Of a stretch of DNA of 64,000 bases, positions 12,077-63,998 are shown in pieces (the first letter of the stretch is position 1; each line of letters opens with the position of its first letter). Under the pieces are notes generated by a model. It was given only the letters and a program-made list of their open reading frames with translations. It made no database searches and was not told the DNA's origin. Source of the stretch: Deltaproteobacteria bacterium (GTDB lineage Bacteria; Desulfobacterota; Syntrophorhabdia; Syntrophorhabdales; Syntrophorhabdaceae); assembly GCA_022711595.1 (NCBI GenBank), contig JAKLET010000004.1:62001-126000 (forward strand), written 5' to 3'. The translations under genes and the position numbers were made by a program.

Positions 12077-12781
12077 GTGATTGTAGGGATAAAAACACTC
12101 ATTATCGTGGCAGTGAACCTAACGGGATATTTATTTTTAAAACGCAAGGTTATTGACCTGAAGAAAGAAAGGATGTTTGAGGATTTTTATCAGGGACAGA
12201 TCACAGAGCATATCAAGGTACCGCCTAACTTTGAGAACCATTACGGCAAGAGCCGTGATTACCTTATGGATGTCTTTAAAAAGATGGAACCCGGGAGTAA
12301 CGTGCTTGAACTTGGTTGTTACCTTTCAAAACGCCTGAATTGGTTCGCAGAAAAAAACCCGGACCTGCTCTTCACCGGTATCGATCTTTCAATGAAAACA
12401 CTTTCGTTGGCGAAGGACAATAACGAATTGATGCCAAATGTCAGGCTTGTTGCGGCCGATTTTAGCAACCTGCCTTTCAAGACCGGAAAGTTCGACGCTG
12501 TGTTCAGCCACCTGGCCCTTTACCATGTTCCTTATTCTCATATCGAAAATGTTTTCAAGGAGATCAGAAGGATCTCGAAAAAGGACATCATTATGATAGA
12601 ACCGTTCCACAAGGTCCTGCCGCTCAAGCAGAAAATATTGTTGATGTCATCTCCTGATAAACATACTCATGATTACCGAAAGATTGAAAATGACGACGTT
12701 GACCGGAAAGAGATCCGTCCCCTGTTTGACGCGTCATCAGGTTATCATCCGATAACCGTTTTCCATTACCTGAAAAAATGA
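12077..12781 (+). CDS. Class I SAM methyltransferase with N-terminal hydrophobic segment
   Basis: The methyltransferase core is visible as motif I VLELGCYLSKRLNWF, motif II FTGIDLS, and FDAVFSHLALYHV at the motif IV position. The core is of the type found in small-molecule and sugar O- or C-methyltransferases. Before it, about 20 residues (VGIKTLIIVAVNLTGYLFL) are strongly hydrophobic and read as a membrane anchor. The start is uncertain: GTG 12077 keeps the anchor and has GGGT about 5 bp upstream, while ATG 12173 would remove it. Its stop overlaps the flippase start (ATGA). The target is unknown; a lipid-linked intermediate fits the anchor. Confidence 0.72.
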   Translation: MIVGIKTLIIVAVNLTGYLFLKRKVIDLKKERMFEDFYQGQITEHIKVPPNFENHYGKSRDYLMDVFKKMEPGSNVLELGCYLSKRLNWFAEKNPDLLFTGIDLSMKTLSLAKDNNELMPNVRLVAADFSNLPFKTGKFDAVFSHLALYHVPYSHIENVFKEIRRISKKDIIMIEPFHKVLPLKQKILLMSSPDKHTHDYRKIENDDVDRKEIRPLFDASSGYHPITVFHYLKK

Positions 12782-14277
12782 GACATTCTGTCGTTCGCAA
12801 TACTTTTATTTATCTTTTCAATATCGGCACCGTCAGTGTCTTGAATATCATTACTATTCCCATCTTTACAGCCTATTTGTCTCCTTATGATTATGGCATG
12901 ATAGCATTGAATGCTGTTGCCACAGGTGTTGCCACTATCATTGGCGGTTGGGGGTTGGACAACTTTGCGAACAGGTTGGAAATCAAATATTTTAATGATG
13001 CTAAAAAGAGGGCGAAGTGCCTGGGATGGGTATTCGTAACTAATTTGGTTATAGCGGTGCTGGTTTGCTGTGTCCTTTCGCTCCTTCCCCACCTGTTCTA
13101 TCGTTTTATTTACCAGGGCGCGAGACTCCCTTATTTTTACTTGTATCTGATTCCGGTCTGGACCGTACTGACGCAAAGAATAATTGTTTTTTACCAACAT
13201 TATCAGATCAATCTGCAGCAGGCATCCTCCTATTCACGGTTGAACATAGCACTCCAATTGTCTAATTTTGCGATCCTTATCCCGGGATTTTTACTGTTTC
13301 ATTTTTCGTTGACCGGATACATGGTGTCCATGTTCGCGGTCCAGCTTTTTTATGCCGGACTGATTGTTTTTTTCTGGATCCCGAAAATATTGGAATTTGA
13401 TGCAAGATATCGCAGATATATCCGGCTCGGCTTTCGATATGGATTGCCGCTCCATTTTGAGGGATATATTGCGGCAATACAAAATTATCTGGATAGGTTG
13501 TTGATAGCGGGCAAGTTGAACATAAACACCCTGGGAATATATTCCTTTTCATTTACTTTTTCGAATAACTACAGCCTGACCACGCAGGCCATGAATAATT
13601 CATTGAATCCCGAGGTTTACAGACGATTGGATCAAAAAACCGATGACGACAATAACCTGGCTTATTTGTATGGTGTCTGCCTGTTCTATTTCATGGCGCT
13701 TGCCCTGATCGGGTTTGCTTTTTCGCTTTTTTCAAAAGAGATCATTATACTGCTGACCAACGAGAGGTTCCATTCGTCCTATGAAATTGTGCCAGTTATT
13801 ATCGTTTCACTTATATTTCTCGATATGAATTCTATCTATAATGCGACCCGTGTTTTCATTAAGAACAAAACAAGGTTTATGACACTGGCCTCGTTCAGTT
13901 CCGTTTTTTTCAAGGCCATACTTTTATTTGCTTTGATACCGTTGATGGGAGTGTGGGGGGCCGTGATCGCATTTTTGTTGTTCCACGTTTTTAATTTTGC
14001 CATTTATAAATTATACGCTGACAGGATATTGCCGATGAAAACCCCCTCGTTTCTATCTGTTATCATACTGCTCGGGTATTCTTTTTTGTACTTCATAGTG
14101 CAATACATATGCCCTTTCAAGGGGCTGTTACCTGTAATTCTGTTGAAGGCGCTGTTATTAACGGTTGTTGTAATAGGTACGCTTGTTTTCCTGAAAAGAT
14201 CTGACAGCGTCCTCTTCGGAAAGATGGTCGCACCAATCCAGAAAATAGTTCCAAGGTGGTTGATGCCAGGCGTATGA
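12778..14277 (+). CDS. wzx: Wzx-type lipid-linked oligosaccharide flippase
   Basis: Polytopic inner-membrane protein of 499 aa with about 12-14 hydrophobic helices spread along the whole length, the size and profile of Wzx/polysaccharide-transport (MOP superfamily) flippases. The N-terminal segment NTFIYLFNIGTVSVLNI and the loop YLSPYDYGMIALNAV are typical of the family. It would flip the undecaprenyl-pyrophosphate-linked repeat unit to the periplasm. The gene is more AT-rich than its neighbours, which is usual for wzx. It starts within ATGA of the methyltransferase stop and its own stop overlaps the next start. Confidence 0.87.
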   Translation: MRHSVVRNTFIYLFNIGTVSVLNIITIPIFTAYLSPYDYGMIALNAVATGVATIIGGWGLDNFANRLEIKYFNDAKKRAKCLGWVFVTNLVIAVLVCCVLSLLPHLFYRFIYQGARLPYFYLYLIPVWTVLTQRIIVFYQHYQINLQQASSYSRLNIALQLSNFAILIPGFLLFHFSLTGYMVSMFAVQLFYAGLIVFFWIPKILEFDARYRRYIRLGFRYGLPLHFEGYIAAIQNYLDRLLIAGKLNINTLGIYSFSFTFSNNYSLTTQAMNNSLNPEVYRRLDQKTDDDNNLAYLYGVCLFYFMALALIGFAFSLFSKEIIILLTNERFHSSYEIVPVIIVSLIFLDMNSIYNATRVFIKNKTRFMTLASFSSVFFKAILLFALIPLMGVWGAVIAFLLFHVFNFAIYKLYADRILPMKTPSFLSVIILLGYSFLYFIVQYICPFKGLLPVILLKALLLTVVVIGTLVFLKRSDSVLFGKMVAPIQKIVPRWLMPGV

Positions 14278-42471: not shown

Positions 42472-43614
42472 ATGAAGAAAAAACTTTGCTTTATTGCAAC
42501 GCTTGAATTGCCGGTAAAGGTTTTCCTTGCAGGCCATATGCGCTTCATGCAGGGCCATTTCGATCTCAGCGTCATAGTGCGCACCGAGGACCCGGCCTTT
42601 CTCGAACCCTTCGGTATAACCGCCACAGTGATCCCCGTGGATATCCGGAGAGATATTTCGATCCGGGAAGACTTGAGATCGCTGCGCGAACTTTTCAGGA
42701 TATTCCGGAACGAGAGGTTCGGCATCGTTCATTCCATCATGCCCAAATCGGGGCTTCTATCAATGGTGGCCGGTTTTTTTGCAAGGGTGCCCGTAAGGGT
42801 GCACACTTTCACGGGTCAACTATGGAAGAACTATACAGGGCTGAAGCGGTTCTTTTTTAAATGCATTGACAGATTGATAGCTGCATGTGCGACGCATATC
42901 CTTGTCGACAGTCCCTCCCAGAGGGATTTTTTGATAAGGGAGGGTGTTGTGGGTCGAAAGAAGTCGTCCGTTCTTGGGTACGGATCTATATGCGGTGTAG
43001 ACACGGAAAGGTTCCGTTTCGATGAGAGATCGAGGAATGAGATCAGGGAGCGGCATGGCATTGATCTGAATGATATTGCCTTCCTGTACCTGGGGAGGTT
43101 GAAACGGGACAAGGGCATCCTTGATCTGGCACACGCCTTCACGGTGTTGTGCGGTAAATTTTCCAACGTTCACCTGTTCATCGTCGGTCCAGATGAGGAG
43201 AAGATGATGGATGAAGTTATATCCATATGCGATAAATGCGCCGACAGAATCTATATCCACGGGTTTACCGAAACACCTGAAAAATATATGTCTGCTGCTG
43301 ACGTCCTGTGCCTTCCCAGTTATCGGGAAGGGTTTGGTCAGGTCATCGCCGAGGCCGCCGCCGTTGGCATTCCGTCCATAGGGTCTAATATATACGGGAT
43401 AACGGACACTATCGATGACGGGGTGAATGGTTATCTCTTTGAAGCAGGGGCCCACTATGATCTGATGCAGAAGATGACGAAGTTCGTCGAAGACCCGTCA
43501 ACGATAAAAACGATGGGAGTGAAGGCAAGGCTGAACGTCTTCCAAAAATTTACAAAGGAGAAGGTAACATCGGCCATGGCCGGGTACTACGAAGAGCTTG
43601 AAAGGTCTTTGTGA
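42472..43614 (+). CDS. Family 4 glycosyltransferase
   Basis: Retaining GT-B enzyme of about 380 aa. HSIMPKSGLL and LYLGRLKRDKGI are N- and mid-domain signatures, and the EX7E motif is EGFGQVIAEAAA near residue 290. ATG 42472 is preferred over TTG 42436 because it starts at the first strand (KKKLCFIATLEL). Its stop overlaps the next start. It adds a hexose or HexNAc residue to the lipid-linked unit. Confidence 0.88.
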   Translation: MKKKLCFIATLELPVKVFLAGHMRFMQGHFDLSVIVRTEDPAFLEPFGITATVIPVDIRRDISIREDLRSLRELFRIFRNERFGIVHSIMPKSGLLSMVAGFFARVPVRVHTFTGQLWKNYTGLKRFFFKCIDRLIAACATHILVDSPSQRDFLIREGVVGRKKSSVLGYGSICGVDTERFRFDERSRNEIRERHGIDLNDIAFLYLGRLKRDKGILDLAHAFTVLCGKFSNVHLFIVGPDEEKMMDEVISICDKCADRIYIHGFTETPEKYMSAADVLCLPSYREGFGQVIAEAAAVGIPSIGSNIYGITDTIDDGVNGYLFEAGAHYDLMQKMTKFVEDPSTIKTMGVKARLNVFQKFTKEKVTSAMAGYYEELERSL

Positions 43615-44249
43615 AGAAGATCGTCAAGTGGTTTGCGGTCTTTTTCATCATATTTGCCGCGCTGTTTTCGATCATCATATTTGCCGCCTGCAATATAGTT
43701 GACTGGCTTGGGGGCAGCGACCGCCCGGAGCCGTCACGCGCGATCATGGTCCTTTCCGGTCCCCCTTCACGCGCGTTATATGCTGCTGACCTTTACAACA
43801 AGGGGTACGCGAAGGAGGTCTATATCACGCGTCCTGTCAGGGAACACTACTTCAAGCTCACCGATGACCTCGGTGTCTATTTCCCCAGGATCGAGCAGGT
43901 GCAGAAAGACGTTCTCATTAAAAAGGGTGTTCCCGCGAAGAACATACACATCGTGGGAAACGACTGCAAGAGCACCGTTGACGAGGCGAGGATCGCAGGC
44001 AGCACCTTCAGGGGTGATAGTTGCAGCATACTAGTTGTTTCCTCGCCATATCACGTTAAAAGAGCGCGGATGATCTTCCGGGACAATGTGAAGGAATGCC
44101 GGCCCAAGGTCCTGGCAACGCCGTATGAGCCATTCCCGAAGAAATGGTGGACAGACCAGGACAGTGCGAGGAACATCCTGCTCGAAGTGACAAAGATCGT
44201 TTTCTATAAACTGGGCGGAAGGTTTGAAAGTAAAAGTGAAGAGAGGTAA
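43611..44249 (+). CDS. SanA/YdcF-like (DUF218) membrane-anchored protein
   Basis: A 212-aa protein with one N-terminal membrane helix (FAVFFIIFAALFSIIIFAAC, residues about 8-28) and a DUF218 domain (AIMVLSGPPSRALYAADLY, SPYHVKRA). DUF218 proteins such as SanA and ElyC are implicated in envelope integrity and undecaprenyl carrier-related processes. Start is GTG, overlapping the preceding TGA. A periplasmic role in the glycan assembly pathway is plausible. Confidence 0.8.
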   Translation: MKKIVKWFAVFFIIFAALFSIIIFAACNIVDWLGGSDRPEPSRAIMVLSGPPSRALYAADLYNKGYAKEVYITRPVREHYFKLTDDLGVYFPRIEQVQKDVLIKKGVPAKNIHIVGNDCKSTVDEARIAGSTFRGDSCSILVVSSPYHVKRARMIFRDNVKECRPKVLATPYEPFPKKWWTDQDSARNILLEVTKIVFYKLGGRFESKSEER

Positions 44250-44476: not shown

Positions 44477-47392
44477 ATGGATGACCAAAATAAAGCGGAC
44501 GAAAGGTATTCGGTAAAGTACATCCTCTGGGTGGTGTTTTATTGCTATTCCACCTTCGCGGCCCTGATGTTCCAGAAGGTGCTGCTGCCCCTTTTCCCCG
44601 GTTATCATGGCGGCAGCGGGCTGATCGGGGCGGATTCCGTTTTTTTTCATAATGTCGCTGTCAAACTGGCACATGCTGTCCGGACGTACGGCTGGAGCCA
44701 GTGGGCCCTGCGTCCGGCCGAGGGGGCCACGGGGAATGTGTCGATTCTTGCGGCCCTTTACGCGGTATTCGGTAACGAACCCATGGTGATCATCCCAGTG
44801 AACGCGGCATTACACGCGACATCAGGCCTGCTCGTTTTTCTCGTAGCACGTGTCTTATGGCCCGGCAAGGTGGGTACGTATTCAGGGGTCATTACCGGTG
44901 TGTTATTCATAGTTTTTCCATCCGCGCTCAACTGGTATGCCCAGGTCCACAAGGACGGTTTTGCGATCCTGGGCATGCTTGTCATCCTGTTCTCCTGGCT
45001 CAAAGGTATGCTGGAACTGTCAGGGGCACGCCGCGTAATATGGGTCACCCTTGGAACCCTTACCGGTCTGGTTTTAGTGGCATTTGTAAGGCCATACAAC
45101 ATAATAGTATTGATCATGTCCGTTACAGTTTTGGGGATAACGTTGTTGATCTATGTCTTCTTGCAAAGAAAAATGATGAGGGCGTTCACGCTTGCAGGCT
45201 TTTTTTGCATCGTGATCATTGCATTTACCGTCATAAATTCATTTATGCCAAAGATCGATCCAATAGAGAAAAAGGATGAGCTTCTCGGTCTCTTCAAAGA
45301 GGCCGGGATAGAATGGAGGTGGGAAAAAAGCGATATTGTCCCCGAAAGCTTTGACCGGCTCATTGAGAACGCAACATTAATAAGGGTAACAAATATATAT
45401 CATAGCAGGATAGTGAACGCGCGATCGGCCATAGATGAGGACATCAGGCCCGTCAATATCAGGACATCCTTTGCTTATCTGCCGCGGGCGGCATTTGTTG
45501 CGCTATTTGCCCCTTTCCCGAAGATGTGGTTTGAGCGTTCGTCGGTGATCTTTTTTGTGTCCATTGCCGAGACTGCCGTATGGTACCTGCTTGTCCCCGG
45601 AGTGTTTCTCGCTTTTTACTACAGGAGATCGGCGGGGCTTTTTCTCATTGCATTGAATTCAATTGTTTTTTTAACCGTACTGGGATACACAAACCCGGTT
45701 CTGGGAACCCTTTACCGGTTCAGGTACGTTTATCTATTCATACTTATGCTTATTGGGATGATGGGATGGATGGAACTGTTAAGAAGGAAATGCGGGGAGA
45801 GGCTCAAGAAGATCGGCTACAGAAAAGATGCCGGGGGTTCTCAGACAGAACGTTGCGTTCCAGTATGCGAGGCGGATCCCCTGATCACCAGGTCTGGTGT
45901 ATTGACGGCAGGTTTCGCCGTTATAACCTTTACATTATTGTCGAACGTCTTGCTTGTTGCGAGAGATGTCGTCCTGGCCAGGTGGTTCGGACTGGGCAAC
46001 GAGCTTGACGCTTTTTTTATTGCCATGATCATGCCCATGTTCCTTGTGACTGTCCTGAGCATTCCCATCGGGACGGTTGTTATCCCTCCGCTTATCGGTT
46101 CCTTTAGCAAAGGGTCCCGCGAAAAGACCCAGCAGTTTATAACGCTTTGTTCGACCATGATATTCTCTGCCATGTTTTTACTGACTTTGCTGCTCTATAT
46201 CTCCGGCAGGTATTACCTGCCTGTGCTGGGTTGGGGTTTTTCGGTTGAAAAGATATCACAGTCTCAACGGATCCTGATGATCGTGCTGCCGATCCTTTTT
46301 TTCAGCGGTTTTGTCATTCTTGGGAACTCGATCCTGAACGCACGGCAGAAGTTTGCACTGCCGGCGCTGGCCCAGGCGGTCGTGCCGGTCGTAGCCATGC
46401 TGGTCCTTCTCATCGCGGCAAAACAGATAGGCATATACGCCATGGCAATAGGTATGTTCATCGGACAACTGGCGAACCTTTTCATTGTAGATCATTACGT
46501 CAGAAAAGAAGGCTATAGGATATTTCCAAGGATCAGTCCCTCTGCCGTTATGGACCTTTGCAAAAGATCGTCAGGGGAATTGAAAAGCCTTTTTTCACAG
46601 TACGCGCCACTTGTCCTGGCAGCGCTGTTTGTCAGTCTTGCTCTACCTGTGAACAACATGATAGCGGCGTCACTGGCCCCGGGAAGCGTTTCCGCGTTCA
46701 ACCTCGGAATGAAGTTTATAATATTTTTTACCGGTCTTATAGGTACCGGCATATCGACGGTAATGCTGCCGCATTTTTCTTCCTATTTTGCCAGGAACCG
46801 CATAATGGATGTCAAACGGGAGCTTTCGTTCTTCCTCTTCCTTTCCACGGTTATTCCAATACCCGTAACAGTGATGATCTATCTACTGACGGGGCCCATG
46901 GTCAGCCTGATATTCGGAGGAGGCTTGTTTACGGTCGGTGATATCGGTGCGGTAGCTAGGATCATGGAGTACGGCATAATCCAGTTGCCGTTTTTCTGCA
47001 CGAACATGCTCCTGGTAAAATTTGCCAACGCTAAAAGAAAGAACACACTCATCACCGTGACATCATTATCCGGATTGATAATCAATATAGTGCTTAATTT
47101 TGTTTTCATCGGGAAGATGGGTGTTGCCGGCATCGCCCTTGCTTCATCATTGTCGGTTGTTTTTGCCACGGCCCTTTTTATCGTTGTCGGACACAGGTAC
47201 AGTGACATCAGCTGGGTTGACGCGACCTTTACGGCGCTCACCTGGCTGCTGTACTTGACAGTCCTTCTGCATCACCATTATGGCAATCTTCCAGGTGTTA
47301 TAGTTACTGCGGCTTTACTTGTTTCCACGATCGTATATCATCTCATGAAGTTCTTTGAGCACAAATTGATCCTAGGGCATCGGGCTGCGTGA
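44477..47392 (+). CDS. Fusion protein: GT-C-like membrane domain + MurJ-like flippase
   Basis: A single 971-aa frame. Residues 1 to about 455 form a polytopic domain with a large extracytoplasmic loop (after FINS, around residues 255-330) and a GADSVFF segment near the N-terminus, resembling GT-C/PMT-like transferases. Residues about 470-971 (from RSGVLTAGFAV) read as MurJ/MviN family flippase: FTLLSNVLLVARDVVLARWFG, NELDAFFIAMIMP and about 14 helices, the full family length of about 500 aa. The frame is uninterrupted across the linker (residues about 440-470, CGERLKKIGYRKDAGG). A flippase carrying its own glycosyl-transferring half is unusual. The stop overlaps the following sugar-transferase start. 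Confidence 0.82.
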   Translation: MDDQNKADERYSVKYILWVVFYCYSTFAALMFQKVLLPLFPGYHGGSGLIGADSVFFHNVAVKLAHAVRTYGWSQWALRPAEGATGNVSILAALYAVFGNEPMVIIPVNAALHATSGLLVFLVARVLWPGKVGTYSGVITGVLFIVFPSALNWYAQVHKDGFAILGMLVILFSWLKGMLELSGARRVIWVTLGTLTGLVLVAFVRPYNIIVLIMSVTVLGITLLIYVFLQRKMMRAFTLAGFFCIVIIAFTVINSFMPKIDPIEKKDELLGLFKEAGIEWRWEKSDIVPESFDRLIENATLIRVTNIYHSRIVNARSAIDEDIRPVNIRTSFAYLPRAAFVALFAPFPKMWFERSSVIFFVSIAETAVWYLLVPGVFLAFYYRRSAGLFLIALNSIVFLTVLGYTNPVLGTLYRFRYVYLFILMLIGMMGWMELLRRKCGERLKKIGYRKDAGGSQTERCVPVCEADPLITRSGVLTAGFAVITFTLLSNVLLVARDVVLARWFGLGNELDAFFIAMIMPMFLVTVLSIPIGTVVIPPLIGSFSKGSREKTQQFITLCSTMIFSAMFLLTLLLYISGRYYLPVLGWGFSVEKISQSQRILMIVLPILFFSGFVILGNSILNARQKFALPALAQAVVPVVAMLVLLIAAKQIGIYAMAIGMFIGQLANLFIVDHYVRKEGYRIFPRISPSAVMDLCKRSSGELKSLFSQYAPLVLAALFVSLALPVNNMIAASLAPGSVSAFNLGMKFIIFFTGLIGTGISTVMLPHFSSYFARNRIMDVKRELSFFLFLSTVIPIPVTVMIYLLTGPMVSLIFGGGLFTVGDIGAVARIMEYGIIQLPFFCTNMLLVKFANAKRKNTLITVTSLSGLIINIVLNFVFIGKMGVAGIALASSLSVVFATALFIVVGHRYSDISWVDATFTALTWLLYLTVLLHHHYGNLPGVIVTAALLVSTIVYHLMKFFEHKLILGHRAA

Positions 47393-48003
47393 TGCTGAAA
47401 AGGTCTTTCGATCTATTATTTGTGCTGCTGCTACTGATCGTTCTATGCATACCCATGGCAGTAATAAGCCTGATCATTCTCAAGACAATGGGGCGTCCCG
47501 TCCTGTTTCGCCAGATACGTCCCGGGTACAAGGGCAAACCGTTCATGATCATGAAGTTCAGGACCATGAACGATGCGCGTGACCCTGAAGGCCAATTGCT
47601 GCCTGACGAATTCAGATTGACCAAATTCGGCAAAAACTTGAGAAGACTCAGCCTCGACGAACTGCCCCAGCTTTTTAACGTGTTGAAGGGAGAACTGAGC
47701 TTTGTCGGCCCAAGGCCGCTGCTCATGGAATATTTGCCCCTCTATACAGAAAGGCAGGCGAGAAGGCATGATGTTAAACCGGGCATCACCGGATGGACGC
47801 AGGTGAATGGTAGAAATGCCCTTACATGGGAAGAGAAATTTGAATTCGATATCTGGTATGTGGACAACAGGAGTTTTTTTCTCGATATGAAGATACTCTG
47901 GATGACCATTGTTAAGGTCATCCAGAGAGAAGGCATAACCGCGGAAGGATCGGCTACTATGCCGGAGTTCAAGGGTTCCGAAACTGATCAGGGAGATAAA
48001 TAA
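47392..48003 (+). CDS. Initiating sugar phosphate transferase (PglC/WcaJ-type)
   Basis: Monotopic phosphoglycosyl transferase of 203 aa: one N-terminal re-entrant hydrophobic segment (LLFVLLLLIVLCIPM), then FRTMNDAR, LRRLSLDELPQLFNVLKGEL with the catalytic Asp-Glu dyad, SFVGPRPLL and VKPGITGWTQVNGRN. It transfers a sugar phosphate from UDP-sugar to undecaprenyl phosphate, the first membrane step of the repeat unit. ATG overlaps the fusion gene's stop. PglC-type size rather than WbaP, without the extra N-terminal helices. Confidence 0.92.
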   Translation: MLKRSFDLLFVLLLLIVLCIPMAVISLIILKTMGRPVLFRQIRPGYKGKPFMIMKFRTMNDARDPEGQLLPDEFRLTKFGKNLRRLSLDELPQLFNVLKGELSFVGPRPLLMEYLPLYTERQARRHDVKPGITGWTQVNGRNALTWEEKFEFDIWYVDNRSFFLDMKILWMTIVKVIQREGITAEGSATMPEFKGSETDQGDK

Positions 48004-53503: not shown

Positions 53504-54931
53504 ATGATGGAAATTAAAATTAAACACATCTCCACCGGGATCTTTTGTCTTGCAGTCTGCGTTCTGTCATTATTAACTGTAACGAATTATCCCGGTCATG
53601 TTGTTGTTTACATCATATTTACGATCCTTTTAAATACTCTTTTTATCCTTGGTTTCACAAAAGGTAAAATCTTTTTTGACACTTTTATTGGTATATTTTT
53701 CTGGCTCGGGTACTGGTTGAAGTTTTCGGTGAGGATGGCATTCTTTGGGGGGAAGTTTCATGAACCGGTCGGCAATTTCAACGGGACTGGCGCTGCTTAT
53801 GACCACGTTCTGCTTGTAATATCATGCGGTGTTGCCGCCCTGTTACTAGCAAGCATTATTAGAAGGAAATTCTTTTTTTCATATGCAGATGTTTTAAAAA
53901 AGGCCCGGCTAGAGGAAATCTTTCATTTCTATCTGGATCACCGGCGGGCTGTTTTGATCGCGTTCACAGGTTTTTTCCTGATAGTTGCTTTATCGAACAT
54001 ATTTTTTGGGTTCTACCAGAGGGGTAGTGTGCCCAGGGCAATATTACCTTTTGGCTTAAGCGGTGCATGCACATGGCTCCTGCTCTTTGGCCTGGCATCA
54101 TTTTCAGCGGTAATACTGGACTGCGAGTTCAGATTGAAAAACAATCCTTATCTTGTATCGATTATCGCGCTTTTTGAATGTTTCTTATCAAACATATCTA
54201 TGCTGAGTCGGGGTATGGTGCTAAATGGCGGGGCATTGATGATAGGTGCATGCGATAATTCGCAAAAGCGCTCCATTCGAATGAGTTTAACGTATAAGGC
54301 CGTGATTATTGTGATATTTGGAATGATGTTCCTGTCCTCAGTTTTTTCTGTCAATCACATCAGAGGTTATTTATTTTCCATCTATAGTCTCAGCGATGTG
54401 AAAGTTAATACGAGTTCATTTGCACAAACAGCAAATAGCAGCTGGGTTTTGTTTATTGACAGGTGGGTTGGAATGGAAGGGGCCATGGCTGTGAGCAGTT
54501 ACCCACACCTGGGATGGGGTCTCTGGAAGAGGGCATGGCAAGAGAAATTTTCCAATTACGGGACAAGCATGTACGACCGTGAATTCATAGTGTCACCTTA
54601 TATGGAAATGGACTGGTCAAAACATCATTTTGTCGGTGTTCCTGGTATACTTGCTTTTTTCTATTATCCCGGGTCTTTCCCGTTTCTTTTCTTTTCCATG
54701 TTTCTTTTAGGTTTTCTCGGGGCCGCTATCGAACTTTTCGTTTACAGATTCAGCGGTGCAAATATTATGTTGTGCGCCCTGCTTGCGCAGGTTGTTTCAA
54801 GCAGGTATGTGCACTTCGGTTACGCTCCCAATCAGAGCTATCTGCTTTTCGGATCATTGTTTCTTAACGTACTAATAATTTACATAATTGACAAGTTACT
54901 GCAAAGATTGAACAGGAAATCGATCTCTTAA
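53504..54931 (+). CDS. Polytopic Wzy-like membrane protein, family A copy 1
   Basis: A 475-aa protein with about 11-12 hydrophobic helices and one long hydrophilic loop (after FSVNHIRGYLF to DWSKHHF, about residues 285-370). Size and profile resemble polysaccharide polymerase or O-acetyltransferase-like membrane proteins, but I recognise no named family. A close paralogue lies at 56300-57859. Shared blocks include IFFDTFIGIFFWLGYWL, EPVGNFNGTGAA, PFGLSGACTWLLLFG and AMAVSSYPHLGWGLWKRAW. Its loop carries Trp, His and acidic residues that could be catalytic. Likely inner membrane, periplasmic active loop. Confidence 0.62.
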   Translation: MMEIKIKHISTGIFCLAVCVLSLLTVTNYPGHVVVYIIFTILLNTLFILGFTKGKIFFDTFIGIFFWLGYWLKFSVRMAFFGGKFHEPVGNFNGTGAAYDHVLLVISCGVAALLLASIIRRKFFFSYADVLKKARLEEIFHFYLDHRRAVLIAFTGFFLIVALSNIFFGFYQRGSVPRAILPFGLSGACTWLLLFGLASFSAVILDCEFRLKNNPYLVSIIALFECFLSNISMLSRGMVLNGGALMIGACDNSQKRSIRMSLTYKAVIIVIFGMMFLSSVFSVNHIRGYLFSIYSLSDVKVNTSSFAQTANSSWVLFIDRWVGMEGAMAVSSYPHLGWGLWKRAWQEKFSNYGTSMYDREFIVSPYMEMDWSKHHFVGVPGILAFFYYPGSFPFLFFSMFLLGFLGAAIELFVYRFSGANIMLCALLAQVVSSRYVHFGYAPNQSYLLFGSLFLNVLIIYIIDKLLQRLNRKSIS

Positions 54932-56235
54932 TGAATTATTATTTTCGTCGAAATGATGGTTTGATCGCAATTATTACGTCATTATGTATCATAACGCCGA
55001 TTTTTTTTCAGATTAAATACGGGATATTTCTAGATAGGTCGATGGTCTTTGATTCCTATGGTTTAATAAGCAGGCTGCCGATCCCCATTTCTGTTGCTGC
55101 ATGTCTTATCGGGATCCCTCTTATTGGTCATTATCGGAACGGTAAATTTGCTATCATCGTGTGTTGCTCATCCTTTGCCTTGATGATCATTTCATTGCTT
55201 GTCGTTGCAAGCGGTCAGGGAGAGATCCTGCAGGAAAAAATCATTAAATTGTCACAATTCCTGTTGCCGATGGTCGCCCTGGTTCTCGGGCAGGTGTATG
55301 TTTGTAAAGATGATGAGCTTTCGTTTCTTTCGAAGTCTTTTTTTATCGTGCTCTTTATAATAATTCTTCTGCAAATGTCCTGCTCCTGGCAATATGGATT
55401 TACGATGTTATCACCTTATCTTTTTTTGCCGTATATTGCTTTATTCAGCATATATCAACATCTGCAATATGTTCCTGTTGTTTTTGCTTCTGCGTTCATT
55501 ATAGTGCTTTTTGTGCTCGGATCCGATAATGCTTTAAGAAAATGGATTGTTATATTCATGCCGATAATGGTGCTTTATGTTGTAGTCTCAACAACCCTCA
55601 CGGGTATGTTCTTGTTGATATCGGGAACGTTAATCTATGTATTGATGTATATTAACATGAGAAAATGGATCATTATAAAACTTGCCTGCGCGGTATTTTT
55701 GATATTTTCACTCGCTTTTGGATATCTCTATCATTATCGGGGGCAAAATATGCTGGAAGAAAAAATAAGTATTGTGACGACAAATGAATTGAGTGGAATA
55801 GAAATAACAGGAATAAAAAAAAGGCTGTGGTACTGGGATTTTTATGGCAATGAGGTCATAAAGGATGCGAAAACCTTCTTTTTCGGAAATGCATTGCCTA
55901 TGAGCAGGGCAAAGCATGCGAGCGCGCATAATTATTATCTGGATTTCGTGTATAATTTCGGTTTTCTTTCATTTATACCGATGCTGATCCTGATTGCGGC
56001 CACATTGCGTGGAGCCTATCGAAAAAGAAAGGATATTTTTGCTTCACCGGAACTAATGGGTATTACGATCGTGGTGTTATACCTGCTTTTTGTTGAGAAT
56101 ATGCTCAAGGTGGGGATGCGTCAGCCTTATCCCGGGATCTTTACGTTTTTTCTCTGGGGTATCTTGATATCGAAATTGTCAGTTTTTTCTTTAAGGGAGC
56201 CAGGTCGAAACGAAGCGGCCTCTGCCAGCGCTTGA
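54931..56235 (+). CDS. Wzy/O-antigen ligase-like protein, family B stand-alone
   Basis: A 434-aa polytopic protein. The signature ASAHNYYLDFVYNFG near residue 330 matches the HNxYL-type motif of O-antigen ligase/polymerase (Wzy_C/WaaL) proteins, and VGMRQPYPGIFTFFLWG follows. Its stretches are homologous to the C-terminal half of the fusion protein at 59110, e.g. the F(D/T)...LPIP(I/L)SV region and AHNYYLD. The stop of copy A overlaps the ATG by one base. Likely polymerises or ligates lipid-linked repeat units in the periplasm. Confidence 0.78.
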   Translation: MNYYFRRNDGLIAIITSLCIITPIFFQIKYGIFLDRSMVFDSYGLISRLPIPISVAACLIGIPLIGHYRNGKFAIIVCCSSFALMIISLLVVASGQGEILQEKIIKLSQFLLPMVALVLGQVYVCKDDELSFLSKSFFIVLFIIILLQMSCSWQYGFTMLSPYLFLPYIALFSIYQHLQYVPVVFASAFIIVLFVLGSDNALRKWIVIFMPIMVLYVVVSTTLTGMFLLISGTLIYVLMYINMRKWIIIKLACAVFLIFSLAFGYLYHYRGQNMLEEKISIVTTNELSGIEITGIKKRLWYWDFYGNEVIKDAKTFFFGNALPMSRAKHASAHNYYLDFVYNFGFLSFIPMLILIAATLRGAYRKRKDIFASPELMGITIVVLYLLFVENMLKVGMRQPYPGIFTFFLWGILISKLSVFSLREPGRNEAASASA

Positions 56236-56299: not shown

Positions 56300-57859
56300 A
56301 TGATATTCAGGATTTCTTTTGCATTCTTATGTATTTTTTGCGTCTTGCTTTTTGCGTTGGCACTTTTTGCCGCGATCAATTACCCCGGCCAAAAGATAGT
56401 ATACGCCGTCTTTACAGTCGCCCTCAATGCCCTTTTAATTCTAGGGTTCACGAAAGATAAGATCTTTTTCGATACCTTCATCGGTATATTTTTCTGGCTC
56501 GGTTACTGGTTAAAATTGTCTGTGAGGGTCGCCTTCATGGGGGGGGAGTTCCAGGAGCCCGTGGGCAATTTCAACGGAACCGGCGCCGCCTTCGATCACG
56601 CCCTTATCGTCACGACCTGCGGTGTAGCGGCATTGCTGATAGCCGGCCTTGTCCGAAGGAGATACTTCTTCTCATACGCGGACGCTGCTGTTCGGGCCAG
56701 GCATGAATCAACGTTCGCCTTTTACAAAAGGTACAGGAAGCCTGTCCTGGTCCTTTTCTTTGCCCTGTTCGCAGCGGTGGGCATCACGAATGTCATCTTC
56801 GGCATCTATCAGAGGGGCAGCATACCCCGCACATTCCTGCCCTTTGGCTTAAACGGTGTTTACACCTGGCTTTTGCTTTTCGGTATGGCATCTGTTTCAG
56901 CGGTCATACTGGACTGCGAGTTCAGGATCAAGAATAATCCTTACCTTGTTTCCGTGATGAGCCTTTTGGAATGCTTCGTTTCCAATGTGTCCATGCTGAG
57001 CAGGGGAATGGTCCTCAACGGCGGCTCCCTGATGATAGGCCTTGCCGATAACGCCAAAAAACGGTTTGTCCGCCTGAGCCTGAGCTATAAGCTGGTCATA
57101 CCGGTTATATTCGCCGTCCTGTTCATTGCATCTGTTTTTGTTGTGAACCATGTACGCGTAGCACTTTTCTTTACATATCCTTATGGGAATGCGTCTGTTG
57201 ATGTCCACCCGGAAAAAGCAACTGTTTCTCCCGGGGAAGCGGCCGGGTCTGACAGGACTGCTGCCGATGCCCGGGTGCCAAATACTTCGCCACATGCTAA
57301 TTCTGTTCCGCGCAGAGATTTGAATTCAGTGAAGTTAACCAAAAAATCGTTTATTTATACGGTAAACACCATCTGGGTTCTGCTCATCGACCGGTGGGTT
57401 GGAATAGAAGGGGCCATGGCGGTGAGCAGTTACCCGCACCTTGGATGGGACCTCTGGAAGAGGGCATGGAAGGAGAAGTTTTCAAATTACGGGACGAGTA
57501 TGTTCGATCTGACTTTCATAAGATCTCCATATTTGGAATCTGACATGCTGAAACATCATTTCGTCAGTGTACCCGGCATACTTGCCTTTTTTTACTATCC
57601 AGGTTCCTTTTCTTTCCTGTTCATTTCCATGTTCTTGCTTGGTTTGCTTGCGGCCGGGATCGAGTTTATTATTTATAAATTAAGTGGTGCGAATTTAATA
57701 CTGTGCTCATTGCTGTCGCAGGTGGTGGCCTACCGGTACGCACATTTCGGCTATGCTCCGGCCCATAGCTACCTGCTTTTCGGGTCGGTCTTTTTGAGTG
57801 TAATTATAATTTATACGGTAAATAGATCTTTGCCATATTTAAATAGAAAACAAGGCTAA
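56300..57859 (+). CDS. Polytopic Wzy-like membrane protein, family A copy 2
   Basis: A 519-aa paralogue of 53504-54931. Homology runs over the whole length; the main differences are about 44 extra residues in the long loop (VDVHPEKATVSPGEAAG to RRDLNSVKLT, residues about 295-340) and higher GC, with most changes at third codon positions. Conserved loop elements (IDRWVGIEGAMAVSSYP, LGWDLWKRAWKEKFSNYG) suggest a shared active or binding site. It follows gene B and precedes the GT4 gene. Same function as copy 1 is probable but not proven. Confidence 0.62.
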   Translation: MIFRISFAFLCIFCVLLFALALFAAINYPGQKIVYAVFTVALNALLILGFTKDKIFFDTFIGIFFWLGYWLKLSVRVAFMGGEFQEPVGNFNGTGAAFDHALIVTTCGVAALLIAGLVRRRYFFSYADAAVRARHESTFAFYKRYRKPVLVLFFALFAAVGITNVIFGIYQRGSIPRTFLPFGLNGVYTWLLLFGMASVSAVILDCEFRIKNNPYLVSVMSLLECFVSNVSMLSRGMVLNGGSLMIGLADNAKKRFVRLSLSYKLVIPVIFAVLFIASVFVVNHVRVALFFTYPYGNASVDVHPEKATVSPGEAAGSDRTAADARVPNTSPHANSVPRRDLNSVKLTKKSFIYTVNTIWVLLIDRWVGIEGAMAVSSYPHLGWDLWKRAWKEKFSNYGTSMFDLTFIRSPYLESDMLKHHFVSVPGILAFFYYPGSFSFLFISMFLLGLLAAGIEFIIYKLSGANLILCSLLSQVVAYRYAHFGYAPAHSYLLFGSVFLSVIIIYTVNRSLPYLNRKQG

Positions 57860-57909: not shown

Positions 57910-59043
57910 ATGAAAATCTTAAATGTGAATAATACGCTCGATCCGGTCAACGGAGGAGGTTCGGCGGAGAGGACACTTCAGGTGAGCCGCTTCCTTGCCG
58001 AACTTGGTGCCGACTGTACGATGCTTTCACTGGATACGGGTGTGACGGACAAAGTCCGTGAAAAGGCGGGCAGGGCACGAATGGTGACACTCCCCTGTCA
58101 GATAGAGAGGTATTTTGTGCCCTCATTATCGTGGGATACGCTATCAAACCTTGTTCGGTCAGCTGACATCGTCCAGATGATGAACCATTGGACGTTGTTG
58201 AACGCTATGGTCTTTCACTATGCCATGCGTTTTAAGAAACCCTATGTTTTAAGCCCTGCAGGTGCGATACCTATTTACGGGCGTTCAAGGACATTGAAAG
58301 AACTATACGATATCATCATAGGCAAACGGATCATTAGTAATGCAAAAGCGTGTGTCGCGATATCGCCCAAGGAGATTCCTTACATCAAAGAATACGGGGT
58401 ATCAGGAGATATGATCTCCGTGATCCCCAACGGGATAGATCCCGAAGATTATATGAAAGAGGACGATGAAGGCTTTAGAGAAAAATACGGGTTGACAGAC
58501 GCTCCTTTCATTCTCTACATGGGTCGCCTGAATCAGATAAAAGGGCCGGATCTCCTCCTTGACGCCTTTATACGCGTGGCGCGGTCAAGCGGCATTTCCT
58601 ATCATCTTGTTTTCGCCGGGCCCGATGGCGGTATGCTCAACGAACTGCAGGCCGTGTCCGTTCGAAACGGCATGGAGAAACAGGTCCACTTTTTGGGTTA
58701 TGTGGGCAGCGAAGATAGGTCTCACGCTTATCACGCGGCTGAATTCCTTGTGATCCCGTCCCGCCAGGAGGCTATGTCCATCGTTGTCCTTGAATCAGGC
58801 ATAGCAGGGACACCCGTTCTTATAACCGATGCTTGCGGGTTTGATGACGTGGCTTCCATCGGAGGGGGTATTGTTGAAGCCGCTTCCGTGGATGGGCTGA
58901 AGAAAGGAATGGAAGCAATAATGAGTGATCCTGCCGGTTTCAAGACCATGGGGGAGAAATTAAAGAGATTTGTCCAGGACAATTATCTCTGGGAGCAAGC
59001 TGCAAAAAAATACCTGGATCTTTTTACACGTGTACTGGGATAA
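57910..59043 (+). CDS. Family 4 glycosyltransferase
   Basis: A 377-aa GT-B enzyme. NVNNTLDPVNGGGSAERT is the N-terminal donor/acceptor loop, ILYMGRLNQIKGPDLLLDA and VIPSRQEAMSIVVLESGIAG give the EX7E-type motif (EAMSIVVLE). Start ATG 57910. Transfers a sugar to the lipid-linked unit. It is positioned between the family-A copy 2 and the Wzx-Wzy fusion, inside the duplicated module, so its product is probably the substrate of that fusion. Confidence 0.87.
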   Translation: MKILNVNNTLDPVNGGGSAERTLQVSRFLAELGADCTMLSLDTGVTDKVREKAGRARMVTLPCQIERYFVPSLSWDTLSNLVRSADIVQMMNHWTLLNAMVFHYAMRFKKPYVLSPAGAIPIYGRSRTLKELYDIIIGKRIISNAKACVAISPKEIPYIKEYGVSGDMISVIPNGIDPEDYMKEDDEGFREKYGLTDAPFILYMGRLNQIKGPDLLLDAFIRVARSSGISYHLVFAGPDGGMLNELQAVSVRNGMEKQVHFLGYVGSEDRSHAYHAAEFLVIPSRQEAMSIVVLESGIAGTPVLITDACGFDDVASIGGGIVEAASVDGLKKGMEAIMSDPAGFKTMGEKLKRFVQDNYLWEQAAKKYLDLFTRVLG

Positions 59044-59109
59044 ATGTTTGACTGGAATATTCACGGACTGGTACCCCTTTTTTTTAAAATCTTTTCGAAT
59101 GGTGCCTGA

Positions 59110-61524
59110 TTGACCATATATATCTACTCGTCGGCGATTCTCCTTAATTCGTTCTCAATGACGGCATTGATGCTGGTGTGCGGATTGGCGGGAGCCCCCG
59201 GTCTTACGGCGGATATCGCGATAGTCCAGGGTGCGACGCTGGCGCTTTTTTTTGCTTTTTCTGCGAACGCCCGCAACGTTATATTCGCGGACACATCGGG
59301 TTCAACATCCCATCTGCTTCTTCGTGGACGGTTGCTGCTCCTGCTCCCCCTTGCCGTCCCGGCTTTCATTCTCAGCTCCGTGATAGGTTCGGTTGACAGC
59401 TTGCTGGCGCTGGTGCTGATAGTGAGGCGTTCATCTGAATGGATAGGCGAGGTCTTTTTAAGCGCCTGTGAAGTACAAAACGACAAGAAGCCTGCCGTTC
59501 TGACCATCGGCGCGGAATGCCTGACATTTGTGCTGACGATCGTGTTGATCTTCCCAATGGGTGTGAACCCGGCAACCGCAATGATTTTTTGGGCATTGAC
59601 ACCGCTCGTGGCGGCGTTGAGCGGGAAGCTCACGGTATCGACTGTGCCGGTCAGCTTGATGCACAATCTGGCAAAACTGGCACCCAACCTTGGGTCAACA
59701 ACTATCATCGGCATCACCGTATACGTTTTCAGGCTGTCCATAATTATGCTTTTAGGCCGTATTGTGGCAGGGGATCTTTTCACGGCCTTCGTGATAGGCG
59801 GTATCATCCCAACAATATACAACAGCTCCATAGGCCCCAGCCTGGCGCTAAGGGCGAGCGGGAGCGGGTCAAAAGACCTGGCTTACAGGGTCATGCAATG
59901 GCTGGTTCCCGGCATGTTTATTTTCGGGTTTGCCGTTTTCTTTTTTTCAATGAATTACCCGGAGATGGCAAATCTTTTTAGAAAAGACCACCATTTCTGG
60001 ACAGCTGTAGGTTTGTCGCTCTCTGGAGGGGCGATAATGATGATCGCCCTGCACAGGCGTATCATGATGCTCCAACGGGAAATGAACGTGGAGATATTCG
60101 GTTCCGATGTCCTCTCTAACATACTCATAGTGGTTTCTGTGCCTTATTTTTATTATCTTCTCGGCGAACGTTCGCTTGAAGGCCTGTATGTTTTTAACGC
60201 CATCCTGACCCTGTGTTTTTACTGGAGCGCGGAAAGGTCGGGAAAGCTCGCGAAAGCACCTGGACGGCATAATACCTTGAATTTGTTCATTATCGCGGGA
60301 CTCGTGCTCTTGCCTTTCTTTTTTCAATTGAACGGCGGTATCTTCAGGGACAGCGCTTTTATTTTTGATACAGGCCGAATACTGAAGCAGCTGCCCATAC
60401 CTCTTTCGGTCATTGCGCTTATAGCGGGAGTTCTGTTCCTGGGAAGGTTCAGGGAAACCCACCGTTCACTGACGGTGTTTTTTTTCACGGCACTTATGCT
60501 GGTGCTGGCAACCCTGGTCATTCGGGAACCCGATGCAAGGAACGCCCGCCTTATATTGATGGCCCAGTATCTCATGCCAATTCTTGGCCTGGTACTTGGA
60601 GAGATGTATGGCGTGGCATCAGAAAAAGGCGAATTCGAGAAAACCTGTCTGGCTGTCGTGTGTTTCATCGTGCCGGTTCAGCTTTTTTGCTCATGGCTGC
60701 AGGGTTTGGTAATTCTTACCCCATATCTTTATTTTTTTAGCATTTACCAGCACATACTTTATGTGCCGGTGATCATGATCATTGCCTATGGCATGGCATT
60801 TGTTTGCCTGTGGGGGCAGGGAGGAAAATGGAAGATAGTCCTTTGCGCCTCACTGCCGCTTGTAGCGATATATGCCGGCGCATCGTATTCCATAGAGGTT
60901 TTTATCGTTTTTCTCGGCATTGTTTTCGTGGCGGTATGGAAGCATGATCCTTCTGTTCTTTCACGCCGCGCCGCAGTTTGCATCCTGGCCCTTGCATTAT
61001 TTTCAGGGATCGCATACGGTGCGGCAGCAAGAACATCCATCCTCGAAAAATCATCTCCAGTTTTTTCAACTGTCCTGGAGAGGTCCAATGCGAAGTACAG
61101 CCTTACAACAACGCTCTCGTCACCGAAGGATCTAACCGAACGCCTTAGGCAATGGGAATTTTACGGCAGAGGGATCATCTCCGGCACCCGTGAATTCTTT
61201 TTCGGTCATCCTTACCCGCCTGACAGACGCGTGCATCCAAGCGCGCATAACTATTATCTCGATCTGCTCTATAATTTTGGGTTTTTTGCCCTGTTGCCCC
61301 TGCTCATTTTACTGGTTTACACGGGAATCCTGACTTATCGCTGCCGTTATATACTGCGAACTGACCGCTTTTTGCTGGCGGCCGTTCTGTCTGTTTTTGT
61401 AATGTTCCTGATAGATAATTCCCTCAAGGTGGGTCTTCGCCAGCCATACCCGGGTATTTTTGGTTTTTTTCTCCTGGGATTCCTTCAGGCCCGGTTTTCC
61501 CGTTCTGTCAGGTCTTTACATTGA
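59110..61524 (+). CDS. Fusion protein: Wzx-like flippase half + Wzy/ligase-like half
   Basis: One 804-aa frame with about 20 or more hydrophobic helices. Residues 1 to about 385 look like a Wzx/MOP flippase: NSFSMTALMLVCGLAGAP, KLAPNLGSTTIIGITVYVFRLSIIMLLG. Residues about 395-804 are homologous to the stand-alone protein at 54931, with LPIPLSVIALIAG, SIYQHILYVPV and the diagnostic SAHNYYLDLLYNFGF and VGLRQPYPGIFGFFLLG. The linker near residues 385-395 is short and has no stop. The TTG at 59110 is the only plausible start. It would combine unit flipping and polymerisation in one protein. Confidence 0.8.
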   Translation: MTIYIYSSAILLNSFSMTALMLVCGLAGAPGLTADIAIVQGATLALFFAFSANARNVIFADTSGSTSHLLLRGRLLLLLPLAVPAFILSSVIGSVDSLLALVLIVRRSSEWIGEVFLSACEVQNDKKPAVLTIGAECLTFVLTIVLIFPMGVNPATAMIFWALTPLVAALSGKLTVSTVPVSLMHNLAKLAPNLGSTTIIGITVYVFRLSIIMLLGRIVAGDLFTAFVIGGIIPTIYNSSIGPSLALRASGSGSKDLAYRVMQWLVPGMFIFGFAVFFFSMNYPEMANLFRKDHHFWTAVGLSLSGGAIMMIALHRRIMMLQREMNVEIFGSDVLSNILIVVSVPYFYYLLGERSLEGLYVFNAILTLCFYWSAERSGKLAKAPGRHNTLNLFIIAGLVLLPFFFQLNGGIFRDSAFIFDTGRILKQLPIPLSVIALIAGVLFLGRFRETHRSLTVFFFTALMLVLATLVIREPDARNARLILMAQYLMPILGLVLGEMYGVASEKGEFEKTCLAVVCFIVPVQLFCSWLQGLVILTPYLYFFSIYQHILYVPVIMIIAYGMAFVCLWGQGGKWKIVLCASLPLVAIYAGASYSIEVFIVFLGIVFVAVWKHDPSVLSRRAAVCILALALFSGIAYGAAARTSILEKSSPVFSTVLERSNAKYSLTTTLSSPKDLTERLRQWEFYGRGIISGTREFFFGHPYPPDRRVHPSAHNYYLDLLYNFGFFALLPLLILLVYTGILTYRCRYILRTDRFLLAAVLSVFVMFLIDNSLKVGLRQPYPGIFGFFLLGFLQARFSRSVRSLH

Positions 61525-62984: not shown

Positions 62985-63998
62985 ATGTTTACCGGTAAAA
63001 CACTATTGATAACAGGCGGTACCGGTTCGTTCGGCAACGCGGTCCTGCACCGGTTCCTTGACACGAAGGTCAAGGAGATCAGGGTGTTCAGCCGGGACGA
63101 AAAGAAACAGGAGGACATGAGGATAGAGCTCAACAATCCCAAGGTGAAGTTCTACATCGGCGATGTGCGGGATTATGACAGTGTGAACGTTGCTATGAAC
63201 GGTGTTGACTATATCTTCCATGCCGCGGCCCTGAAACAGGTGCCGTCCTGCGAGTTCTATCCCATGGAGGCTGTCAGGACCAACATCCTGGGCGCGGAGA
63301 ACGTGCTGAGCGCCGGGTTGGTCAACGGGGTCAACAAAGTTATCGTGTTGAGCACGGACAAGGCTGTTTACCCCATCAACGCGATGGGAATGTCAAAAGC
63401 GTTGATGGAGAAACTGATGGTCGCGAAAGCGAGGACCGAGGGTGAAGGATCGAAAACGGTGCTTTGCGGTACGCGTTATGGGAACGTCATGGCCTCCAGG
63501 GGGTCCATCATTCCTCTTTTCGTCAAACAGATAAAGGAAGGGAAACCATTGACGGTGACGGACCCCAACATGACGCGGTTCCTCATGTCCCTTGATGATG
63601 CCGTCGATCTTGTCCTGTATGCCTATCGGCACGCAAGGCAGGGGGATATTTTTGTCCAGAAGGCGCCGGCATGCACGATCGGTGATCTTGCTGAAGCGGT
63701 CAAAAAAATATTCAAAAGCAATAACAGGATAAAGATCATCGGGACGCGCCATGGTGAAAAGCTTTATGAGACACTGCTGACCCGCGAAGAGCTTGCCAAA
63801 GCGAAGGACCTCGGGGATTATTTCAGGATAGTGCCCGATGACAGGGACCTCAATTACAACAAGTATTTCACCGAAGGAGCGCAGCAGCTCTCTTCGCTGG
63901 ATGATTATAATTCGCACAATACGCTGCGGCTTTCGGTCGACGGGATCGTGGACAAGCTGTTAAAGCTCGATTACATCCAAAACGAGCTCTCCGCGTGA
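62985..63998 (+). CDS. UDP-GlcNAc 4,6-dehydratase/5-epimerase (CapE/WbjB-type)
   Basis: A 337-aa SDR whose signature places it with CapE/WbjB/FnlA. TGGTGSFGNAV is the NAD loop, and the catalytic motif is MxxxK at Met134-Lys138 (MGMSK) after TDKAVYP, instead of YxxxK. CapE-type enzymes make the 4-keto-6-deoxy-L-series UDP-sugar that leads to UDP-FucNAc or UDP-QuiNAc. GGGAGG lies 6 bp before the ATG. The gene ends 2 bp before the window edge, so reductase and epimerase partners, if present, lie beyond. Confidence 0.9.
   Translation: MFTGKTLLITGGTGSFGNAVLHRFLDTKVKEIRVFSRDEKKQEDMRIELNNPKVKFYIGDVRDYDSVNVAMNGVDYIFHAAALKQVPSCEFYPMEAVRTNILGAENVLSAGLVNGVNKVIVLSTDKAVYPINAMGMSKALMEKLMVAKARTEGEGSKTVLCGTRYGNVMASRGSIIPLFVKQIKEGKPLTVTDPNMTRFLMSLDDAVDLVLYAYRHARQGDIFVQKAPACTIGDLAEAVKKIFKSNNRIKIIGTRHGEKLYETLLTREELAKAKDLGDYFRIVPDDRDLNYNKYFTEGAQQLSSLDDYNSHNTLRLSVDGIVDKLLKLDYIQNELSA

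Follow-up and report, generated by a model that had tools for sequence, protein, structure and literature searches.

A fusion of flippase-like and Wzy/WaaL-like halves encoded in the polysaccharide loci of environmental bacteria

The polysaccharide locus

The 64,000-nucleotide stretch of DNA analysed here (the window) forms an extended polysaccharide locus, the forward strand of which carries, at 59110..61524, a gene for a single protein with a flippase-like and a polymerase-like half. Among the other genes on this strand, Pfam searches place a Bac_transf (PF02397) initiating sugar-phosphate transferase at 47389..48003, a GT4-type glycosyltransferase, which is a conserved neighbour of the fusion, directly upstream of it at 57910..59043, and an FnlA-like UDP-GlcNAc 4,6-dehydratase/5-epimerase (PF02719 and PF08485) at 62985..63998. 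RmlD-like and other nucleotide-sugar enzymes are encoded in the window as well. An undecaprenyl-phosphate starter (PF02397) and a nucleotide-sugar gene (PF02719) are hence both to be found near the fusion, a combination by which a Wzx/Wzy-dependent locus is recognised.

Much the same company is kept by the fusion in its relatives, where its usual neighbours are WcaI-like, RmlD-like, FnlA-like and WecB-like genes, together with a WcaJ- or WecA-like starter. FnlA/FnlB/FnlC-like and WcaI-like genes, with PF02397 or WecA-like starters, are seen across the fusion loci, and FnlA-like homologues that are 69-88% identical lie near many of the fusions. Taken together, the WcaI-, RmlD-, FnlA- and WecB-like genes and the WcaJ/WecA-like starter that flank the fusion suggest, from their sequences, that the units being handled contain L-FucNAc or a sugar of that type.

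The window also encodes, at 12778-14277, a canonical flippase of the Wzx type (PF01943, PF13440) that is separate from the fusion, and separate Polysacc_synt proteins are present in a further four of the loci (L018, L021, L060 and L062). Since several loci hold such a canonical flippase, the fused one may be neither the sole nor the main flippase of its locus. A second flippase fusion, of 971 amino acids, occupies 44477-47392 and brings the MOP proteins of the window, with that at 12778-14277, to three; its multi-helix N-terminal half of ca 450 residues has no Pfam match and its C-terminal half belongs to the MurJ family (PF03023, residues 500-964). A 976-residue homologue, 65% identical, is found at L016:180-3110, and a DUF218 (PF02698) protein is encoded just upstream of the MurJ fusion, at 43611-44249.

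With respect to chain length control, no match to Wzz (PF02706) was found in the genome from which the window derives, although the locus encodes two or more polymerase/ligase-like proteins, such that any control of chain length in this organism must be of a different kind; Wzz (PF02706) is found in 16 of the 22 other fusion-bearing genomes.

The fused reading frame

The 804-residue frame begins with a TTG codon immediately 3' of an in-frame TGA (59107-59109), contains no internal stops and continues unbroken across 60240-60320, all of which can be read directly from the window sequence. When the genome of the window was searched with the fusion, two places were returned, namely the fusion itself and the 434-residue, stand-alone paralogue of its C-terminal half (54931..56235, forward strand). 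TTG is also the aligned start of the fusion in many members (window 59110; L015 8320; L016 8879; L023-L026 and L029 9995), in both deltaproteobacterial and betaproteobacterial lineages.

The initial annotation of this DNA had described a single 804-residue frame, and this description is borne out, there being neither a stop nor a change of frame at the junction; its placing of the domain boundary at residues 385/390 was correct to within a few residues. Its further proposal, of homology between the C-terminal half and the separate protein encoded at 54931-56235, is likewise confirmed (34% identity, E about 1e-60, with the stand-alone protein matching residues 392-797 of the fusion only), and the two blocks that it had regarded as diagnostic, AHNYYLD and RQPYPGIF, are indeed present in both proteins.

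An assembly error, a frameshift or a missed stop might, in principle, have joined two adjacent genes into one. A frameshift or missed stop at the junction was looked for and not found, and an assembly error is ruled out since the joined frame recurs, free of stops, in four other assemblies from the same family, in beta- and gammaproteobacterial genomes and in another genome of the same phylum. Indeed, the same junction is conserved in 24 independent genomes of different phyla or classes, against which an artefact has a vanishingly small probability. In other words, the fused protein is real, since it has been found in 24 or more environmental bacterial species with sequenced genomes.

The junction between the halves is short, extending over about residues 379-390 (60244..60279, forward strand) as judged from the alignment, a charge count and the ends of the helices. 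The alignment and charge count have it as basic in most members, and the helices of the structural model stop at 377-380 and resume at 388. From the 12 helices predicted for the N-terminal half, it is expected that the junction lies on the cytoplasmic side; with twelve helices to each half, both termini of the N-terminal one would be cytoplasmic, which is fitting for a chain that continues directly into the C-terminal half.

Distribution and co-inheritance

The 24 fusion-bearing genomes comprise five from the window's own family, one from elsewhere in its phylum (G659, of another family) and 18 that were reached through beta- and gammaproteobacterial relatives. Besides that of the window, the own-family fusions have 807 (G027), 818 (G011), 823 (G005) and 658 (G004) amino acids, the last being cut by the end of its contig. 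These contain no stops and are 62-73% identical to the window protein in the N-terminal half and 52-65% in the C-terminal half. A scan of 84,980 species with one genome per species, in which two short motifs served as the query, gave 17 loci, in all of which both halves are covered save where a contig ends. Three of these are own-family copies that had already been found, and the other 14, which align along their full length with 34-41% identity, come from beta- or gammaproteobacteria (Hydrogenophaga, Methylophilaceae, Herbaspirillum, other Oxalobacteraceae, Casimicrobiaceae and Burkholderiales). Four extra copies come from the taxonomic order to which the genome of locus L023 belongs (G250, G476, G197 and G207). 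Tblastn gave no matches among plasmids and none among viral contigs, and the viral folds returned were chance matches only, such that a viral or plasmid origin was rejected.

In all 24 genomes the match to the N-half profile is followed by a C-terminal half in the same frame, and no stand-alone N-terminal half was encountered in any search, two of which scored four candidates per genome while the species scan used its two short motifs. Trees were made of the N-terminal halves of 22 fusions and of the C-terminal halves of the same number together with three stand-alone proteins, the latter tree being unrooted. The main groups are the same in each and the trees agree at the supported groups, which include Hydrogenophaga with the deltaproteobacterial copies, the Oxalobacteraceae, L022/L027/G250 and L030/L031/G207. 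Moreover, the pairwise distances of the two halves have a correlation of 0.83, a value reached by none of 5000 permutations, from which the halves are judged to share a history, that is, to have been inherited together.

The N-terminal half

Residues 1-378 (59110..60243, forward strand) are predicted to adopt a 12-helix MOP flippase fold. AlphaFold2, when given an alignment of 18 rows, returned the whole chain with pLDDT 79 and pTM 0.83, and the N-terminal half alone with pLDDT 83, pTM 0.85 and 12 helices. In VIA-align comparisons this half matches WzxE with Z 22.8 (368 residues, 4.2 A), the MATE protein 6fhz with Z 23.4 and MurJ with Z 18-19. The result is repeated with the model of the half alone (WzxE Z 22-23, MATE 23, ca 365 residues). 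Foldseek on its own gave weak E-values (best 0.0085), yet its top rows are all MOP proteins. Since the identities of these and of the C-terminal matches are only about 10%, they are to be taken as matches of fold, the Z values being well over the level at which the tool advises caution for helical bundles. On this basis the N-terminal half is assigned, as modelled, to the MOP-superfamily flippase fold with its two six-helix bundles.

No such assignment comes from sequence families. With an E-value cut-off of 0.1, flippase-family models (PF01943/PF13440, PF03023, PF01554) gave no match to the N-terminal half of any of the 18 members, none of the Pfam or NCBIfam flippase models matches this half in any member scanned, a sequence search of the PDB produced a chance hit only, and no curated sequence library recognises any part of the window's fusion protein. 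Necessarily, therefore, it is the predicted fold that supports the flippase call, and the half is best filed under the MOP fold but outside the Wzx sequence families. The initial annotation's flippase-like half thus stands in respect of fold and not in respect of sequence family. That this half might instead extend the polymerase fold was examined by structure prediction, which gives it a separate MOP fold; an internal duplication of the polymerase fold was also considered and rejected, as the two halves have no homology to each other (hhalign E 0.53).

Several charged residues of the N-terminal half are invariant or nearly so, namely R55, R74, R106, R107, E110, E114, R208, D222, R317 and D333. 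In WzxE, the residues R44, R143, R239, R282 and D262 are described for the cationic lumen (PMC11706664). These charged residues are relevant to the proposal that the half is a MOP-fold relic or scaffold, which no longer flips and only anchors or regulates the polymerase, with flipping left to a separate Wzx. Such a proposal would sit well with the separate Polysacc_synt proteins of the window and of four other loci, and with the failure of any flippase family model to recognise the half. It is argued against by the invariance of R55, R208, D222, R317 and D333 and by the mean column identity, which is higher for the N-terminal half (55%) than for the C-terminal half (48%); moreover, in loci such as L023, L024, L025, L026 and L029 no second multi-helix flippase candidate was found within about 10 kb. 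We therefore regard a dead flippase half as distinctly improbable.

The partner family X

A further multi-helix protein, here called family X (A6), accompanies the fusion. Two copies are encoded on the forward strand of the window, one of 475 residues (53504..54931) adjoining the stand-alone C-half protein and one of 519 residues (56300..57859), and a third copy lies elsewhere in the same genome (G000:C34:135929-137434). The family has the motifs DRWVGIEG, SRGM and YYPGSF, and in most loci X adjoins the fusion or a stand-alone C-half protein. Among 46 genomes of the window's class, X and the fusion are both present in the same 5 and both absent from the other 41 (Fisher 7e-7, a value in which relatedness is ignored). 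No match to X was found in Pfam, NCBIfam or the PDB, and X represents a new family; its being a relative of the C-terminal half is unsupported (E 0.38).

The C-terminal half

Residues 391-804 (60280..61521, forward strand) are assigned a Wzy_C/WaaL-type membrane glycan transferase fold from VIA, PF04932 and hhalign comparisons. Model residues 384-802 match the O-antigen ligase WaaL (7tpg_B) in VIA-align with Z 21.9 over 326 residues at 4.6 A, and hhalign aligns this half to neighbouring ligase-type proteins across their HN motif. PF04932 (Wzy_C) is the sole family to recur among 18 members, matching five of them with a best value of 4.9e-9. The window protein itself is not matched, such that the Wzy/ligase-like character given to this half by the initial annotation is upheld by the fold and by these five members, and not by any family match of the protein on which it was based.

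Within the half, a loop at about residues 640-715 (61027..61254), probably periplasmic, varies greatly in length and is modelled with low confidence at 656-672. The SAHNYYLD block (61240..61263) has N714 and Y715 invariant and H713 in 14 of 18 members, and the RQPYPGIF block (61438..61461) has R777, Q778, Y780 and G782 invariant; all three features are on the forward strand. H713 aligns with the histidine of the HN motif, which is the catalytic residue in WaaL, and is replaced by Y or Q in the remaining four members (L015, L016, L017 and L023).

The C-terminal half also exists alone, both at 54931 in the window and in the genome G197, where a 479-residue protein (L052, on contig C22) adjoins a copy of X, the fusion of the same genome being located on another contig; fusion is thus not obligatory for this half. 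In the unrooted tree the three stand-alone proteins (window 54931, L016 and L052) fall among the fused ones, and their grouping as one clade is not rejected (p-AU 0.34).

Whether this half is a polymerase or a ligase bears directly on the function of the whole. Were it a WaaL- or PglL-type ligase, passing units or polymer from undecaprenyl-pyrophosphate to an acceptor, the protein would be a flippase-ligase fusion and X would be the real polymerase. WaaL is the best solved fold for the half, X is a conserved multi-helix neighbour in most loci and could be a polymerase, and a published model ties WaaL functionally to Wzx (PMC4863624). However, the fold matches include no solved Wzy, and so WaaL as best match cannot separate ligase from polymerase. 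Moreover, the WaaL histidine is not invariant, separate WaaL-type genes are already present in four fusion loci (L022, L027, L030 and L060; PF04932 or TIGR03097 where scanned), and no X was detected in five of the genomes with a fusion (G152, G157, G160, G161 and G207), in which a polymerase would then be missing. The ligase reading is accordingly unlikely. In view of the variable histidine and the separate ligase-type genes, it is more likely from the sequences that the C-terminal half is a repeat-unit polymerase.

Proposed mechanism and significance

The reading that we prefer, and consider probable, is that the fusion serves the assembly of a Wzx/Wzy-type glycan as a membrane machine made of one chain, in which the N-terminal half would flip, the C-terminal half would polymerise and units would be handed from one to the other. 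Cytoplasmic enzymes would build a short, undecaprenyl-pyrophosphate-linked unit, probably containing L-FucNAc, which the N-terminal half, through the alternating-access cycle of MOP flippases, would bring across to the periplasmic face. The C-terminal half, kept alongside by the junction of ca 12 residues, would then attach this unit to the chain under assembly, most probably in the role of repeat-unit polymerase. Covalent fusion would impose a 1:1 stoichiometry and proximity on flippase and polymerase, and because of this freshly flipped units could reach the polymerase ahead of the free pool.

A more elaborate and tentative version, which we hold to be possible while leaning slightly away from it, would have the flip-and-polymerise chain working with X as a dedicated membrane partner and transferring units directly, with the protein of G207 and its glycosyltransferase forming a three-step assembly line. 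In that genome a single frame of 1233 residues (L060:5745-9446) joins a GT2 glycosyltransferase (PF00535) to the flippase and polymerase halves, and the C-half loop carries an insert of more than 100 residues.

The idea that Wzx and Wzy form one complex is of long standing, and a Wzx-Wzy-Wzz complex is commonly proposed, although as of 2015 the confirmed interaction was that of Wzy with Wzz only (PMC4863624). A 2025 review still calls for structures of Wzx/Wzy/Wzz complexes (PMC12004945), and in the recent paper on the WzxE structure the passage of units from the flippase to the polymerase is still given as a proposal (PMC11706664). No report of a natural Wzx-Wzy fusion was found in open-access papers. 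The folds and the pathway are known, and it is the covalent arrangement that is apparently undescribed, as well as widely conserved. In this regard, a natural and ancient fusion is evidence that Wzx and Wzy can operate at a fixed 1:1 stoichiometry, and provides a handle on whether flipping and chain assembly act as one, offering a single polypeptide for cryo-EM and for experiments in which the linker is cut. Annotation would also benefit, as the fused proteins currently match no flippase family model.

Comparison with known systems

Among close comparisons for the N-terminal half is that with the Wzx O-unit flippases, as represented by WzxE (PDB 9G9N/9G9P), with which it shares the 12-helix MOP fold (Z 22-23, with 363-371 residues aligned), conserved charged residues in the helical part and a Wzx/Wzy-type gene cluster. 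It differs from Wzx in its identity of ca 10%, in the lack of a match to the Polysacc_synt models and in a chain that runs on into a transferase. The lipid II flippase MurJ also has the MOP fold (Z 18-19), but with 14 helices, two more than the 12 of the N-terminal half, which in addition has no PF03023 match and lies in a different kind of locus.

The C-terminal half resembles WaaL (PDB 7TPG) and the PF04932 family in its fold (Z 21.9), in its aligned HN motif and in the weak PF04932 matches of some members. Unlike WaaL, its H713 is not invariant, its RQPYPGIF block is specific to it and a flippase is attached. The fusion as a whole can be set beside the O-antigen pathway with its separate Wzx, Wzy and Wzz, since it would perform the same two steps and is found in the same type of gene cluster, with the difference that Wzx and Wzy, normally separate proteins, have their counterparts here in one chain.
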